Shown: piece after piece, positions 1 to 5,807 of the stretch
Layout: each line of letters starts with the position of its first letter
Position numbering within the stretch: position 1 is the stretch's first letter
DNA from: Croceicoccus sp. Ery15
GTDB taxonomy: Bacteria; Pseudomonadota; Alphaproteobacteria; Sphingomonadales; Sphingomonadaceae
Reading direction: 5' to 3'
Assembly: GCF_020985305.1 (NCBI RefSeq)
Contig: NZ_CP087588.1
Coordinates: 1,116,001-1,180,000 of the forward strand
Length of the DNA: 64,000 nucleotides
Made by a program: the position numbers and the translations under genes
The notes under the pieces: model-generated
Told to the model about the DNA's origin: nothing
The model's input: the letters and a program-made list of their open reading frames with translations, nothing else
Databases searched by the model: none

Positions 1-696
1 CAAGGCTTCGCTCCAGCTTGATGAAATTTCCTGAAAATACGGGTCGCTCGCCATGATCCGCTTTTCGTGCAGCGGTTCGAATCGGTCGCGTTCCAGCACA
101 AGCACGTCGAGGGGCATGCCGACCGACAGATTGGCCGCCAGCGTCGAATCCATCGACACCATCAGCAGTTTGACCCCGTCCTCGAAGCTCATCGTCCGGT
201 CATAGCCGCGGATGATGATGGGGCGCCCGTATTTGGTCTCGCCGATCTGGAAGAACGGCGTGTCGGCGCTCGCCTCGATGAAGTTGCCTTCGGGATAGAT
301 CAGGAACAGGCGCGGTTCCATGCCCGCAATCTGGCCCGCGACGATCATGCTGGCAGTAAAGCGCGGTCCGCCGGACTGGCCGTCGCTGGAAATCTGTCGC
401 TCCTCGATCGTGGCGCGCAGCAATTCCCCGACCTGATTGGCAACCTGAAACATGGTAGTGCATTTCAGGATCGACGGTTCGCGGTCCTCGGGCGCCTTGT
501 TGCGTTCCTCCAGCTTGCTGACCACGGCCTGCGTGGTCGCCAGATTACCCGCCGTCATGATCGCGATGATCCGGTCGTTGTCCGACCAGTGGAACATCTT
601 GCGAAACACCGAGATGTTATCGACGCCCGAATTCGTCCGCGTATCGCTCATCATGACGATACCCTTGTCGAGCATCATGCCGACGCAATAGGTCAC
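1..696 (-). CDS. Anbu / proteasome-type peptidase (3' end outside window)
   Basis: This is a homologue of HslV and proteasome beta subunits of the Anbu family (COG3484 type), a self-compartmentalised N-terminal-threonine hydrolase. I start it at a GTG so that removal of Met exposes Thr1. Asp17 (in MMSDTRTN) and Lys32 (in VFRKMF) then fall at the positions expected for the catalytic set. A purine-rich GGTGGGGGACGG lies just upstream. The 232 codons visible run off the low-coordinate edge in frame, with no damage seen. It is the last gene of a five-gene minus-strand operon and starts 111 bases after the transglutaminase gene. Family identity is strong; the substrate is unknown to me. Confidence 0.88.
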   Translation of the reverse strand, partial: MTYCVGMMLDKGIVMMSDTRTNSGVDNISVFRKMFHWSDNDRIIAIMTAGNLATTQAVVSKLEERNKAPEDREPSILKCTTMFQVANQVGELLRATIEERQISSDGQSGGPRFTASMIVAGQIAGMEPRLFLIYPEGNFIEASADTPFFQIGETKYGRPIIIRGYDRTMSFEDGVKLLMVSMDSTLAANLSVGMPLDVLVLERDRFEPLHEKRIMASDPYFQEISSSWSEAL

Positions 697-807
697 GCCC
701 GTCCCCCACCTTTCATTAACTTCCCGCCCTTCATCAAACCCGCATCGCTGGCAACGGGAAGACCGGCACCATAGGCGTAAATCGTACTATTCACAGCAGG
801 CGGCGTA

Positions 808-1779
808 TCAATCCTGTGGGCCGGGCGCGTTCGGATCGTTCGACTGACCCTGTTGCGACTGAATTTGTTGCGACTGGCTTTGCGATTGCCCGTGCCCGTT
901 CAGGCCTTTCCCGTTCAGGCTCTGGCTCTGTTTTTGCTGCCCCGGTTGCTGGGTTTGGCTCTGCTGCTGGGTTTGGCCCTGCTGCCGCCGGACCGTCAGA
1001 TCGACATCCAGACCCGCATTGCTGCAGCCGATGGAAATGCCCTTGACCGGCGCGGCCTCGGAATAATCCTGACCGCTGGCGACGCGGATATAGCGTTCGT
1101 CGGGACTGATCTGGTTCGAAACGTCGAAGCCGACCCAGCCCAGACCGTCGATATGCGCCTCGGCCCATGCGTGGCCCGCCTTCTGCTCGTCGCTATGCTC
1201 CATTAGCAGATAGCCCGACACATAGCGCGCCGGAATGCCCAGATGCCGCGCGCAGCCGATAAAGATATGCGCATGGTCCTGACACACGCCCTCACCCGCA
1301 TGCAGCGCATCTTCGGCCCGTGTGTCCGTGTCGGTCTTGTCCTTTTCGTATTTCACCGCGTCGAGGACAGCCGCCGACAATGCGTGAAGCATCGGCAGCG
1401 TCTCGCTCTCCCGCTGGAATTTTTCGGCCAGAGCACGCATCTTCGCGCCCGGCCGGGTCAAAGGTGTATGCCCCGAAAAATGCCAGCACGGCAGATGGCC
1501 CGCATGGCGCCCGATAATGCCGTGATTATCCGCCGTATCGATCGTGCCTTCGCAATCGATGATCACTTCGGTCACGCCCGGTTCGATGGCGATCAGCGTG
1601 GTAGTGTTCATATTGTGGTCGTCGAACTGCAACTGCTCGTGCGCGCCTTCATAGCGCATCGTCCAGTCCACAACCTGCTGTCCGCTGGTGGATTTCGGCG
1701 TCAGGTGCAGCCGCTGCAAGGCGTGCACGACAGGTTCGTCGAAGAGATAGCGGGTGCGGTGATGGACGTTAAGGCGCAT
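808..1779 (-). CDS. Transglutaminase-like cysteine protease with Gln-rich C-terminal tail
   Basis: The 323-residue protein has an N-terminal transglutaminase-associated beta domain (about 1-100) and a transglutaminase-like catalytic core. The likely triad is Cys166 (GEGVCQDHA), His203 (GHAWAEAH) and Asp219 (VGFDVSN). I chose the ATG whose product begins MRLNVHHRT, typical of the family; a longer upstream reading would overlap the neighbouring alpha-E gene. Residues from about 265 onward form a low-complexity tail with roughly 23 Gln in the last 60 residues, unusual for this family. No signal peptide is seen, so it is probably cytoplasmic. It lies 19 bases after the alpha-E gene and upstream of the Anbu gene, an association that points to peptide or isopeptide cleavage or transfer in this operon. 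Confidence 0.88.
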   Translation of the reverse strand: MRLNVHHRTRYLFDEPVVHALQRLHLTPKSTSGQQVVDWTMRYEGAHEQLQFDDHNMNTTTLIAIEPGVTEVIIDCEGTIDTADNHGIIGRHAGHLPCWHFSGHTPLTRPGAKMRALAEKFQRESETLPMLHALSAAVLDAVKYEKDKTDTDTRAEDALHAGEGVCQDHAHIFIGCARHLGIPARYVSGYLLMEHSDEQKAGHAWAEAHIDGLGWVGFDVSNQISPDERYIRVASGQDYSEAAPVKGISIGCSNAGLDVDLTVRRQQGQTQQQSQTQQPGQQKQSQSLNGKGLNGHGQSQSQSQQIQSQQGQSNDPNAPGPQD

Positions 1780-1798
1780 GGGACGTCTGTACTCTCCC

Positions 1799-2743
1799 TC
1801 AATCCGAGAAGCGGTAGTCGGTTTCGACGGCGTGCGCGATCTCGTTATTGTCGGAAATGAAATCCGACAGGAATTCGTGCAGCCCCTGATCGAAGATGGA
1901 TTCGATATCGGCATCATGCAAGCGGATGTCCGCCTTGCGCATCAGCTCATGCGCATGCAGTTCCTCGCCATATTGCAGAGCCAGGTTGCCAAGGTTCGAG
2001 CGGATCTTGGAATAGCAGAACGCCAGCGAGCGCGGGAAGCGTCCGTCGAGGATCAGGAAATCGGCGATCCCCTTGGCATCCATCTGGCCCGAATTCAGCC
2101 AGCGATAGGCACGTTCCGCGCCCAGCGAACGCAGGATCGTTTCCCACTGAACATTGTCGAGGCTGGACCCGACATAGGAAAGCGAGGGCAGCAGCACGTA
2201 ATATTTGACGTCGAGAATGCGGGCCGTGTTGTCGGCGCGCTCGATAAAGCTGCCGATGCGCGCGAAATTATAGATGTCGTTGCGCAGCATCGACCCGTCC
2301 ATCGCGCCGCGCACCAGCGTCGCCTCGCGCTTGACCGCCGCGATGGCATCCCCAAGATTGCTTTGGGTCACGGGCCGCGATAGCAGATCGTTGATCTGCA
2401 GATAGCTTTCGTTCACCGCCAGCCATAATTCGGCGGTAATGACGTTGCGCACCGCGCGCGCATTGGTCCGCACCTGCCCGATCAGCGACCGGATCGAATT
2501 GGGATTGTCCTTGTCGCGCAGGATATAGTTCCACACCTGCATGCCGGTGAAGGTGCCGTTCTTTTCCAGATAGGATTCGGTCATTCCCGCGGTTTCGAGG
2601 ACAGAGCTCCATTCCTGTTCCGCCGTGATGGAATCGCTGGTCAGCGCCATGCGGAAGCCGGTGTCGAGCAGGCGGGCGCAATTCTCCGCCCGTTCGAGAT
2701 AGCGGAACATCCAGAATACGCCGTTTGCGCTGCGCCCTAGCAT
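1799..2743 (-). CDS. Alpha-E domain protein (DUF403)
   Basis: The 314-residue all-helical protein begins MLGRSANGVFWMFRYLERAE, the typical opening of the alpha-E (DUF403) family. It has no recognised catalytic site. Its ATG overlaps the TAA stop of the ATP-grasp gene by one base (TAATG), so translation is likely coupled. Family members almost always sit beside circularly permuted ATP-grasp and transglutaminase-like genes, as here, and are thought to act with them. What it binds is not known to me. Confidence 0.87.
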   Translation of the reverse strand: MLGRSANGVFWMFRYLERAENCARLLDTGFRMALTSDSITAEQEWSSVLETAGMTESYLEKNGTFTGMQVWNYILRDKDNPNSIRSLIGQVRTNARAVRNVITAELWLAVNESYLQINDLLSRPVTQSNLGDAIAAVKREATLVRGAMDGSMLRNDIYNFARIGSFIERADNTARILDVKYYVLLPSLSYVGSSLDNVQWETILRSLGAERAYRWLNSGQMDAKGIADFLILDGRFPRSLAFCYSKIRSNLGNLALQYGEELHAHELMRKADIRLHDADIESIFDQGLHEFLSDFISDNNEIAHAVETDYRFSD

Positions 2744-4179
2744 TATTCCTCCAGCACCCAGCTGTCCTTGGTGCCGCCGCCCTGGCTGGAATTCACCACC
2801 AGCGACCCCTGTTTCAATGCCACACGCGTCAGCCCGCCGGGCGTTATGTCGATGCCATTGGGGCTCATCAACACAAAAGGCCGCAGATCGACATGGCGCG
2901 GGCTCAACCCCTTTTTGGCAAGGATCGGCACGGTGGAAAGCGACAGGGTCGGCTGCGCGATATAGTTTTGCGGGTTCGCCTTCAGCTTCTGGACGAATTT
3001 CGCAATCTCGCGCCTGGACGCGGTCGGGCCGATCAGCATGCCATAGCCGCCCGAACCGTGCACTTCCTTCACCACCAGATCGGCAATGTTATCCAGCACA
3101 TATTTCAGCGCATCGGGCTCCATGCAGCGCCATGTTTCCACATTGGGCAGCAGCGGTTTCTCGCCGGTATAGAACTCCACGATATCGGGCATGAAGCTGT
3201 AGAGCGCCTTGTCATCCGAAATGCCGGTGCCGGGCGCGTTGGCAATGGTGATGCCGCCCGAACGATAGACATCCATGATCCCCGGAACGCCCAGCAGGCT
3301 TTCGGGATTGAACGTCAGCGGGTCGAGGTAATCGTCGTCGATCCTGCGATAGATCACGTCCAGCGGCTTGTACCCGCGGGTCGTGCGCATCTGGACACGC
3401 CCGTCGATGACGCGCAGATCGCTCGCCTCCACCAGTTCCGCGCCCATCTGGTCGGCCAGAAAGCTGTGCTCGTAATAGGCGGAATTGAATATTCCCGGCG
3501 TCAGCACCGCAATGGCGGGCTTGCCCTTTCCGTCAAAGGCAGGCGGCGCACATGCGGCAAGGCTGCGCGCCAGCCTCCGAGGATAGTTCGATACCGGCGC
3601 GACTTTTACCCGCGTGAACAGTTCGGGGAACATCGCCATCATCGTTTCGCGGTTTTCCAGCATATAGGAAACACCGCTGGGCGTGCGGGCATTGTCTTCC
3701 AGCACGTGGAAATCGTTCGGACCGGTGCGAACCAGATCGATGCCGGTGATGTGGGTATAGATCCCGCCCGGCGGAGTAAATCCGCACATGTTGGGCAAAA
3801 ACGCGGCATTACCGCGCAGCAGCCATTCGGGCACGCGGCCCGACCGCACGATTTCCTGCCGGTGATAGAGATCGTGGAGAAAGGCGTTGAGCGCCCTCAC
3901 CCGCTGTTCGATTCCCCGCGACAGGCGGCGCCATTCCTGCGCGGTGATGATGCGCGGCACCGGATCGAACGGGATCAGCCGTTCCTCGGCCTCATCCTGA
4001 CCGTATACGTTGAAGGTGATACCGGTGCGGCGGAAGAACGCCTCTGCCTCGCGGTGTTTCTTGCGCAGGGCTTGCGCGTCCTGCTCGTCGAACCAGTCCG
4101 AATAGCCGGCATAAGCGGCCCGTATCGAGCCGTCCTCGCCATGCATTTCGTCAAAGGAAGGTTCCTGGTCCCTGCTCAT
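2743..4179 (-). CDS. Circularly permuted ATP-grasp protein
   Basis: The 478-residue protein belongs to the circularly permuted type 2 ATP-grasp family (DUF404/DUF407 type). Its N-terminal third (AEAFFRRTGITFNVY, RIITAQEWRRLSRG) matches the conserved lead region. A glycine-rich segment KEVHGSGGYGM near residues 365-375 resembles an ATP-binding loop, and the conserved C-terminal half includes STVPIL and RPFVLM. ATP-grasp enzymes form acyl-phosphate intermediates and join carboxylates to amines, so a peptide or amide ligase role is inferred. It starts 10 bases after the upstream hydrolase gene and overlaps the alpha-E gene by one base. Confidence 0.88.
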   Translation of the reverse strand: MSRDQEPSFDEMHGEDGSIRAAYAGYSDWFDEQDAQALRKKHREAEAFFRRTGITFNVYGQDEAEERLIPFDPVPRIITAQEWRRLSRGIEQRVRALNAFLHDLYHRQEIVRSGRVPEWLLRGNAAFLPNMCGFTPPGGIYTHITGIDLVRTGPNDFHVLEDNARTPSGVSYMLENRETMMAMFPELFTRVKVAPVSNYPRRLARSLAACAPPAFDGKGKPAIAVLTPGIFNSAYYEHSFLADQMGAELVEASDLRVIDGRVQMRTTRGYKPLDVIYRRIDDDYLDPLTFNPESLLGVPGIMDVYRSGGITIANAPGTGISDDKALYSFMPDIVEFYTGEKPLLPNVETWRCMEPDALKYVLDNIADLVVKEVHGSGGYGMLIGPTASRREIAKFVQKLKANPQNYIAQPTLSLSTVPILAKKGLSPRHVDLRPFVLMSPNGIDITPGGLTRVALKQGSLVVNSSQGGGTKDSWVLEE

Positions 4180-4189
4180 GCGCTATCGC

Positions 4190-5164
4190 TCATGAGTCGG
4201 GGTTGTCACCGGTTTTTTGCTGCGTTGCAAGATGCGTAAAACTTTCGGGTGATTTTGCCAGCACCCATGACACCGCCTCAATCGAAGCAGGATGCCAGGC
4301 AAAGCCCATATGGGTGCACCGGACATGCAAAGAGAAATCGCGCTCTTCGCGCTTGCCGCAGGCGCAGTGACGATGCACCACCCCGTCCTGCGCGCTCCAC
4401 ATAGCAACCGTCGGCACGGGGGGCTTGGCCGCGAATTCGCCCTTTACCGGCGGTTCGTCGACCGGATGACCCGCGATGGCATGATACAGCCGCCAGCCGT
4501 TATTGCCATGCATGTCCCCCGAAAACGGCGAGCCGAGCGTGATCACCATCTCGACATGATCGGGCAGCCTCTTGGCCGCTTCGCGCGCGAAAACGCCGCC
4601 AAGACTCCACCCTACCAGCGTGATCTTCCGATGCTCGGCGCGGGAAACGCGCCGGATGCGCGACAACAGGCGTTCGAACCGGTCCTCGCTTGCGCCAAGG
4701 TTCCAGCCAAGACCCCAATCGGTAACCGAATGCCCTGCCTCTTCCAGTGCCTTGTGCATGGGGGCCATGCGCCACGGATGCGAACCGAAACCGGGTAGCA
4801 GCATTACCGCACGCGGTTCTTCGGGGATCGTCACATCCATCTTGCCATGCGCTATGCGGAACGCGGCGGGTGCGGCCAGCGATGCCAGCTCTTTCAGCAA
4901 AAGGCGCGAGGACGGCGTCGATACACCTTCCGGTTGCGGGCGCAACGCCAGCGCATGGCGGCGCTGCCATTCGCGATAAAGAACGCCGAATCCCTTGCCC
5001 GGCCTCGGCGCATCGGCAGGCGCGGGATTCGTCCGCTCGACCTGCGGACGAGATGTCTTGATTTTCCCTTTACGAACAACAGTGTCAGCCCATCCCTGCT
5101 GCGGCAGGCGGGTCAGGCGGGCATTGCTGAGGGGGATGCCGGTATGGATGTGATCGGGTTTCAT
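4190..5164 (-). CDS. Alpha/beta-fold hydrolase
   Basis: The 324-residue protein has a C-terminal alpha/beta hydrolase domain (about 115-300) with nucleophile elbow GWSLGG (Ser187), probable acid Asp260 (WSAQDGVV) and His285 (RCTHMGF), and oxyanion region LLPGFGSHP. The N-terminal 110 residues are basic and poorly conserved; no signal peptide is seen. I start at the ATG giving MKPDHIHTG because AAGG lies before it; an in-frame ATG six codons upstream has no ribosome site. It is the promoter-proximal gene of the operon, 10 bases from the ATP-grasp gene. Esterase, lipase or amidase activity is possible; the operon context is the only functional clue. Confidence 0.8.
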   Translation of the reverse strand: MKPDHIHTGIPLSNARLTRLPQQGWADTVVRKGKIKTSRPQVERTNPAPADAPRPGKGFGVLYREWQRRHALALRPQPEGVSTPSSRLLLKELASLAAPAAFRIAHGKMDVTIPEEPRAVMLLPGFGSHPWRMAPMHKALEEAGHSVTDWGLGWNLGASEDRFERLLSRIRRVSRAEHRKITLVGWSLGGVFAREAAKRLPDHVEMVITLGSPFSGDMHGNNGWRLYHAIAGHPVDEPPVKGEFAAKPPVPTVAMWSAQDGVVHRHCACGKREERDFSLHVRCTHMGFAWHPASIEAVSWVLAKSPESFTHLATQQKTGDNPDS

Positions 5165-5261: not shown

Positions 5262-5807
5262 TCAGGCGGCGCAGTCGCCCGTGCGGGTCTGCTTCATCCG
5301 CATGGTCATCGTCATTTCCTGCCCCTGCGCCGTCATCTTGGCATCGGCCACAACGTCGGAGCCGGTTTTGCCGACGGTGCCGTTCATCGTCATCTCCATC
5401 GTTCCCCCGTCGAGCGCGCAAAGGGCCTTGGCGTCAAGCTTGCCGCCATCGACGCTCAGCCGGTTAAAGTCGCATTGGCCGTCTTGCGCGACTTGACCCA
5501 ACTGCTCCTTGAAACCCTTGGCGGCATCCTCTGCCGTCAGGCAAAAACTGTCGGCATAGGCGCTTTCCATCATGCCCTTCATCTGGTCCAGCATGTTGTC
5601 GGGCGCGCCAGGCAGATCAAAGCGGGTCACTTCTACCTCAAGCTTGTATTGCCCCGGCTCGGGTTGATCGAGCTTGCCGAATTCCTCTGCCGCCTCGTCA
5701 AGATTCATCGGTCTTGCGGCTTCGGGCTCTTCCGGCTCGGTTGAACAGGCAGCAAGCGCCATGGCGGCAATCGCGATCAGGCCTGTATATTTCCATTGAT
5801 TTCGCAC
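5262..5807 (-). CDS. DUF3617 family lipoprotein
   Basis: The 181-residue protein has a lipoprotein signal peptide ending in the lipobox LAAC (Cys21), so it is predicted to be acylated and anchored to a membrane. The mature part contains the DUF3617 pattern: [13 protein letters not shown], a central [12 protein letters not shown] with a conserved Cys, [11 protein letters not shown], and a final TRTGDC. The two central Cys and the terminal Cys may form disulfides. It is transcribed alone, divergent from uvrB, with a hairpin terminator behind it. Function unknown. Confidence 0.82.

Follow-up and report, generated by a model that had tools for sequence, protein, structure and literature searches.

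In the Anbu operon, the transglutaminase-like protein (TGase) usually, though not universally, ends in a glutamine (Q). This gene set, formed by an ATP-grasp ligase, an alpha-E protein, the TGase and the proteasome-like peptidase Anbu, opens the 64,000-nucleotide stretch of Croceicoccus sp. Ery15 analysed here (the window; contig NZ_CP087588.1, positions 1,116,001 to 1,180,000). Within the phylum sampled, Pseudomonadota, 128 distinct TGases lie directly 5' of Anbu, and after 2 low-scoring ones (scores 63 and 70) are dropped, the terminal glutamine is present in 106 of 126. Among TGases with an alpha-E gene 5' the value is 132/175 (130/168 without the 7 that carry an alpha-E that is fused or has a long open reading frame, ORF), and a glutamine stands among the last three residues in 154/175. 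The tails of the relatives are short, with 2–17 residues after the last conserved strand in 153 of 166, most of them ending in glutamine. In a collection of plasmids, from which eight Anbu loci out of 27 records were opened, six loci have a TGase directly 5' of Anbu, and five of these (Klebsiella, Limimaricola, Aeromonas, Caballeronia, and Paracoccus) end in glutamine, while the Methylobacterium one does not. Of the remaining two plasmid loci, one is without a TGase, and in the other the TGase lies behind Anbu and does not end in glutamine. No mention of the trait was found in the available parts of the open-licence literature on the Anbu operon.

The terminal residue is not a mere consequence of glutamine-rich tails, since 17 of the 19 tails without glutamine at positions −2 to −11 still end in one. 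Nor does a fixed inherited end explain it, because among 56 disjoint homologue pairs that are 50–95% identical and have different tail lengths (2 of 168 TGases, with empty tails, were dropped), both members end in glutamine in 41, one in 8, and none in 7. The corresponding counts are 53, 12, and 8 of 73 pairs with the identity limit set to 40%, and 21, 2, and 4 of 27 pairs with a limit of 60%. Both members of a pair share the same residue at −1 in 44/56 cases, at −2 in 25/56, at −3 in 9/41, and at −6 in 13/25. Clustering at 50% yields 26 groups in which all members end in glutamine, 6 in which none does, and 5 mixed ones (n = 37); at 60% the respective values are 47, 20, and 4 (n = 71). According to controls from the 175 loci, a terminal glutamine is rare in the accompanying proteins (8/175 for alpha-E, 1/145 for ATP-grasp, and 5/153 for Anbu), and it is found in 194/2107 closed stop-to-stop ORFs of at least 250 amino acids, a set that includes spurious frames and TGases. 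On a tree of 168 TGases, 130 of them with the terminal glutamine, the terminal state changes at least 19 times; thus, the residue has been lost and perhaps regained. Being kept while tail length and sequence change, it provides one exact residue to examine in the Anbu pathway.

Based on the analogy with RimK/RimB and LysX/LysW, it is tentatively proposed that the TGase tail may be a handle or substrate, as carrier or acceptor, of an amide make-and-break cycle run by ATP-grasp and alpha-E. In such a cycle ATP-grasp and alpha-E would activate a carboxylate and form an amide bond, and the TGase-like cysteine enzyme, together with Anbu where it is present, would transfer or hydrolyse such amides. 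The TGase would then be more than an enzyme, its tail, usually with a free terminal glutamine, offering the ligase a handle. The tail would presumably be flexible and a substrate rather than a docking signal, with Anbu breaking the product. The ATP-grasp protein is homologous over its full length to 3N6X (E 5.1e-192), deposited as a putative glutathionylspermidine synthase, and this homology to a putative amide synthetase is counted in favour of the proposal. A more specific version appears rather doubtful, namely that the TGase of the Anbu gene set is enzyme and carrier at once, its free C-terminal glutamine accepting amide-linked material from ATP-grasp and alpha-E that Anbu or the TGase later releases. 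If true, this version would amount to a carrier or tagging system based on a protein C-terminus that had not been recognised before and that is widespread in Pseudomonadota.

Known amide-ligation and tagging systems share parts of such a scheme. The Pup/Dop/PafA/proteasome system also combines a C-terminal glutamine, ATP-dependent ligation, and a proteasome-type hydrolase; its ligase fold, tag protein, and hydrolase context, however, differ from those of the Anbu operon, and the terminal glutamine of the TGase also occurs without Anbu. No PafA/Dop family (glutamine-synthetase-like ligase) is reported by Pfam among six window proteins scanned, and no genome search for PafA or Dop was made. Glutathionylspermidine synthetase/amidase, after which 3N6X is named, likewise pairs ATP-grasp amide synthesis with a cysteine amidase, but acts on a small-molecule substrate as a single bifunctional protein. 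RimK, unlike the window ligase, is not known as a circularly permuted ATP-grasp enzyme. Its system resembles the proposed cycle in pairing an ATP-grasp ligase that extends a protein C-terminus with a protease that cuts the extension back: RimK adds residues to the C-terminus of the ribosomal protein RpsF, and RimB removes them (PMC10092738; this and the other papers cited by accession were available to us in part). The RimK system, however, targets a ribosomal protein and has no TGase. LysX, an ATP-grasp enzyme (PMC4431377), links its substrate to the C-terminal Glu of LysW (PMC10433800); LysW, in contrast to the TGase, which is an enzyme ending in glutamine, is a small zinc-binding protein ending in Glu. 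As for a conserved C-terminal residue of the kind found in the RimK target or LysW, 132/175 TGases end in glutamine, but the window copy itself ends in QD.

Several observations weigh against the proposal. The sampling is confined to Pseudomonadota, and the terminal glutamine is absent in 43/175 TGases, the window copy among them. A contig scan meant to reach Anbu of other phyla, from which the best 80 of 582 loci were taken (nearly all betaproteobacterial by title), gave 25 TGase-Anbu pairs, of which 13 end in glutamine and 12 do not; 53 of the 80 have no TGase hit, 18 of these in stretches shorter than 9,000 bases. In the genus of the window, the end is QD in the window and three congeners, QG in one, and Q in the other nine of 14. 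The terminal glutamine codons are CAA in 71 and CAG in 61 genes, versus 315 and 1238 in the gene body; TGA is the stop codon in 22/132 glutamine-ending TGases and is rare in comparison with alpha-E genes. Several of the 56 pairs are also glutamine-rich throughout. Given the odd terminal codon and stop usage, mutation bias may therefore contribute. In its strong form this would make the residue a neutral by-product, with glutamine-rich tails being shortened by CAA/CAG to TAA/TAG changes and so ending in glutamine by default. Although the excess of TAA/TAG stops and CAA terminal codons and the glutamine-richness of many tails fit this explanation, it is distinctly improbable: tails otherwise free of glutamine still end in it, both members do so in most homologue pairs of different tail length, and alpha-E, ATP-grasp, and Anbu rarely show it.

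Lineages ending in QD or QG retain glutamines close to the terminus. This would also be compatible with a different role, in which the TGase's own cysteine uses the side chains of the tail glutamines as acyl donors, in self-cross-linking or self-deamidation. Several glutamines are present in many tails, 22 of the 43 tails with another final residue carry a glutamine among the last three positions, and the window lineage has lost the terminal glutamine while keeping 21 in 55 residues; the transglutaminase-type triad is also intact. Self-modification is nevertheless unlikely, as the last position stands out even in tails with no other glutamine at −2 to −11, and the 14 TGases of loci with a fused ATP-grasp gene have no terminal glutamine.

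As for published biochemistry, the Yersinia ATP-grasp protein releases phosphate, a reaction that neither glutamine nor glutamate stimulates, and the Yersinia operon proteins showed no specific contact with one another (PMC6376114). The TGase in that study, however, had a C-terminal FLAG tag, so a tail-dependent contact could have been missed; the interaction experiment is a possible blind spot, because the tag would cover the terminal glutamine.

The comparison of loci with and without Anbu bears on the partner of the tail. In triads of ATP-grasp, alpha-E, and TGase with an adjacent Anbu the terminal glutamine is found in 122/153 cases, versus 9/17 without one, a raw difference that also weighs against the proposal. 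It would fit a TGase tail that docks on Anbu to open or activate it, in the manner of HslU tails acting on HslV. Other points agree with docking: a free C-terminal residue recurs, no activator of Anbu is known and Anbu is inactive on standard substrates, and the groove of Yersinia Anbu could take an HslU-like tail according to the authors (PMC6376114). Peptidase activity of Anbu on standard substrates was not detected, and proteasome inhibitors bind Pseudomonas Anbu (PMC5666114, PMC6376114). Docking is, however, not likely to be the explanation. Eight triads without a directly following Anbu, from other families of the class, end in glutamine; three have Anbu elsewhere in the genome, and five belong to genomes with no Anbu match (G163, G167, G201, G300, and G318). 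On the tree no association of the terminal glutamine with adjacent Anbu is found, although the 4 supported independent pairs available are too small a number to rule an association out. No alignment column of Anbu tracks the glutamine, nor does any column of ATP-grasp or alpha-E; a co-varying partner residue was rejected on this ground, and its absence counts against the proposed ligase partner as well. The dependence of the terminal glutamine on Anbu is thus set back by the Anbu-less triads and the tree with its 4 pairs.

The 17 triads without a following Anbu divide by lineage, with 1/7 ending in glutamine in genus g2 and 8/10 in the rest; based on these values, Anbu seems not to be required. 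The eight triads ending in glutamine named above come from twelve regions (L448–L459), whose other 4 TGases stand outside a triad and do not end in glutamine. Among 23 TGases away from Anbu, only one has the terminal glutamine, a count that by itself suggests dependence on Anbu; 14 of the 23 come from eight fused-type ATP-grasp loci (0/14 with the terminal glutamine), and 7 of the other 9 from genus g2. ATP-grasp and alpha-E are the preferred candidates for the partner of the tail, since the sets ending in glutamine share separate genes for both. Genus g2, however, also has separate ATP-grasp and alpha-E genes and yet is mostly without the glutamine, so these genes do not suffice to explain it, and two triads or near-triads without a following Anbu lack it as well (L328 and L207, the latter with a TGase that faces Anbu from the other strand). 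The Anbu-less g2 triads (L318–L325) mostly end in GGEE, GGEG, GSDA, GGNA, GGDA, or GGDAQ.

The ATP-grasp, alpha-E, TGase, and Anbu genes of the window are the standard, already published Anbu operon, reportedly described by Valas and Bourne in 2008 and by Iyer et al. in 2009. The operon has thus been known since 2008–2009, and the available parts of the literature on it name no substrate or product. The four genes adjoin on one strand in the published order, and the window copy shares with the published operon the four families, their order, and Thr1/Asp17/Lys32; in contrast, it adds the long Q/S-rich TGase tail, a downstream LuxR-type gene, and a hydrolase neighbour (Table 1). In the host order all four core genes stand in order in most long loci; together with the 128 cases of a TGase directly 5' of Anbu, this indicates that the arrangement is more than chance. 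The recurrence of the core across bacteria, noted in the sequence-only reading, agrees with the literature (PMC5666114, PMC6376114). The same papers give the gene order and a predicted role in peptide synthesis or tagging. For the four core genes, the make-and-break pathway of the sequence-only reading coincides with this published prediction and remains the best frame, whereas its extension to the hydrolase as a fifth member is not borne out.

Table 1. Features of the locus; coordinates are those of the window unless a locus or chromosome is named, and Pfam matches are given with E-values
Feature	Coordinates	Strand	Pfam match	Remarks
Anbu, proteasome-like Ntn hydrolase	1..696	-	PF00227 7e-11	GTG start, Thr1 next; truncated at the window edge; whole gene (252 aa) at L003:7938-8696 on the 3.63-Mb chromosome
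Transglutaminase-like protein (TGase), 323 aa	808..1779	-	PF01841 1.3e-23; PF08379 3.9e-16	C166/H203/D219; mechanical ORF starts at an earlier ATG, 1917, inside alpha-E
TGase C-terminal tail, Q/S-rich	811..975	-		Last 55 residues by the cut used here; 21 Q; ends PQD
Alpha-E protein	1799..2743	-	PF04168 2e-89	
Circularly permuted ATP-grasp ligase	2743..4179	-	PF14403 6.8e-162	PF14403/PF04174; 3N6X homologue
Alpha/beta hydrolase	4190..5164 (or 5182)	-	PF00561 1.5e-6	Neighbour conserved within one family; can occur without the core
DUF3617 gene	5262..5807	-		Belongs to the uvrB-DUF3617-hydrolase neighbourhood
LuxR-type response-regulator gene	L003:7119-7772	-		Downstream of Anbu, outside the window
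Second alpha-E locus	C1:1370287-1377109 (L004:3287-10109)			TGase-DUF2126 protein, ATP-grasp-alpha-E fusion, further TGase

The hydrolase was followed in a survey of 147 genomes of the host order, in 57 of which ATP-grasp is matched at E ≤ 1e-60. The adjacency count used 90 of 106 hydrolase matches (the last 16 listed were left out), 57 of 71 ATP-grasp matches (14 paralogues were left out), and all 51 Anbu matches. Anbu lies within 4 kb at 44/57 ATP-grasp loci, and the hydrolase directly 5' of ATP-grasp at 25/57. The adjacency is a family-level arrangement and not a unit: the hydrolase occupies this place at 25/36 loci with ATP-grasp identity of at least 70%, across many genera of one family, but its presence or absence across the host-order loci is not tied to the core. 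Thus, a search for co-occurrence of all five genes, suggested along with the sequence-only reading, finds frequent adjacency and at the same time a separable hydrolase. In the same-genus relative G068 the stretch from ATP-grasp to Anbu and the LuxR-type gene are missing, while the hydrolase, DUF3617, and uvrB stay, and none of the ATP-grasp, TGase, and Anbu queries finds a match anywhere in this genome at the cut-offs applied. G146 carries the Anbu core on one contig and hydrolase-DUF3617-uvrB on another. At L165 (G146) and L166 (G068), these three genes form a group that lacks the core. L166 and L131 both come from genus g7, where the core is present in 7 of the 8 genomes sampled; relative to L131, L166 is missing everything from ATP-grasp through the LuxR-type gene, and the far-side gene directly adjoins the hydrolase, so that the absence of the core in L166 is probably a loss, judging from this gene order.

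A five-gene pathway with the hydrolase as a functional member, as the sequence-only reading had it, is accordingly highly unlikely. The family-wide adjacency and the 10-base gap in the window speak for it. In contrast, 6 of 31 hydrolase places of at least 180 bits are not beside the core, the spacing to ATP-grasp is at least 59 bases in 22/25 cases (start codons being approximate), G068 keeps the hydrolase without the core, and the uvrB-DUF3617-hydrolase neighbourhood exists on its own. Within this one family, the LuxR-type gene makes a stronger candidate for membership than the hydrolase does, though it is also lineage-specific: it lies behind Anbu in 24/25 operons of the hydrolase type, is missing together with the core in G068, and is found in 0/16 other Anbu loci (L146–L161). 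Lying outside the window, it was out of reach of the sequence-only reading, which does not name the glutamine tail either. At the place taken by the window hydrolase, the Klebsiella plasmid operon carries another alpha/beta hydrolase (L469:213-1127). It was rejected as a counterpart, since its similarity to the window hydrolase is not convincing (best E 0.005) and it matches other Pfam families.

In the window, the ORF coordinates confirm five minus-strand genes with spacings of 10, −1, 19, and 111 bases, and all catalytic residues named in the sequence-only reading are where it placed them: C166, H203, and D219 of the TGase, T1, D17, and K32 of mature Anbu, and S187, D260, and H285 of the hydrolase. 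The TGase residues are unchanged in an alignment of 25 diverged TGases, and those of Anbu are invariant in 27 Anbu sequences (T2, D18, and K33 when the start Met is counted). The TGase matches 3ISR (E 7.1e-13), with the alignment stopping short of the 3ISR C-terminus. For alpha-E, no solved structure related by sequence is found up to E 0.1. In the window and three congeners the TGase tail is long (48–60 residues) and Q/S-rich, with QD at its end; the other members of the genus differ in this. Promoter and terminator scans of the operon give matches at chance level only. Nitrogen regulation is described for the DUF404/407, DUF403, and TGase genes of Burkholderia cenocepacia (PMC5491218) and for Anbu in P. 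putida, as cited in PMC5666114. A sigma-54 site for nitrogen control was rejected in the present sequence, with 42 matches (at most 2 mismatches) versus 36.5 expected and none of them in minus-strand orientation in the interval from the operon to uvrB.

The second alpha-E locus of the same genome contains the DUF2126 amidoligase/ATP-grasp-alpha-E fusion/TGase system reportedly described by Iyer et al. It shares the ATP-grasp, alpha-E, and TGase families with the window core, but has ATP-grasp and alpha-E fused, an extra amidoligase, and no Anbu in L004. The lack of a terminal glutamine in all 14 TGases of the eight fused-type loci is a further difference; DUF2126 was checked in L004 among these.

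Anbu also occurs apart from its usual partners. Many betaproteobacterial Anbu genes (L343–L417) are separated from the core, in line with the 53 of 80 loci at which the sequence retrieved, short in 18 cases, holds no TGase hit; a few of these loci keep ATP-grasp and alpha-E. Divergent Anbu genes with scores of 128–137 (L460–L467) have no ATP-grasp, alpha-E, or TGase hit within 12–13 kb. On an Azospirillum brasilense plasmid (L468), a lone Anbu gene is surrounded by ABC-transporter genes, and the 9.7 kb of sequence hold no core partner. On an Acidithiobacillus caldus plasmid (L471), glnL, a dCache sensor gene, and a gene of the TGase family lie close to two Anbu-like ORFs.

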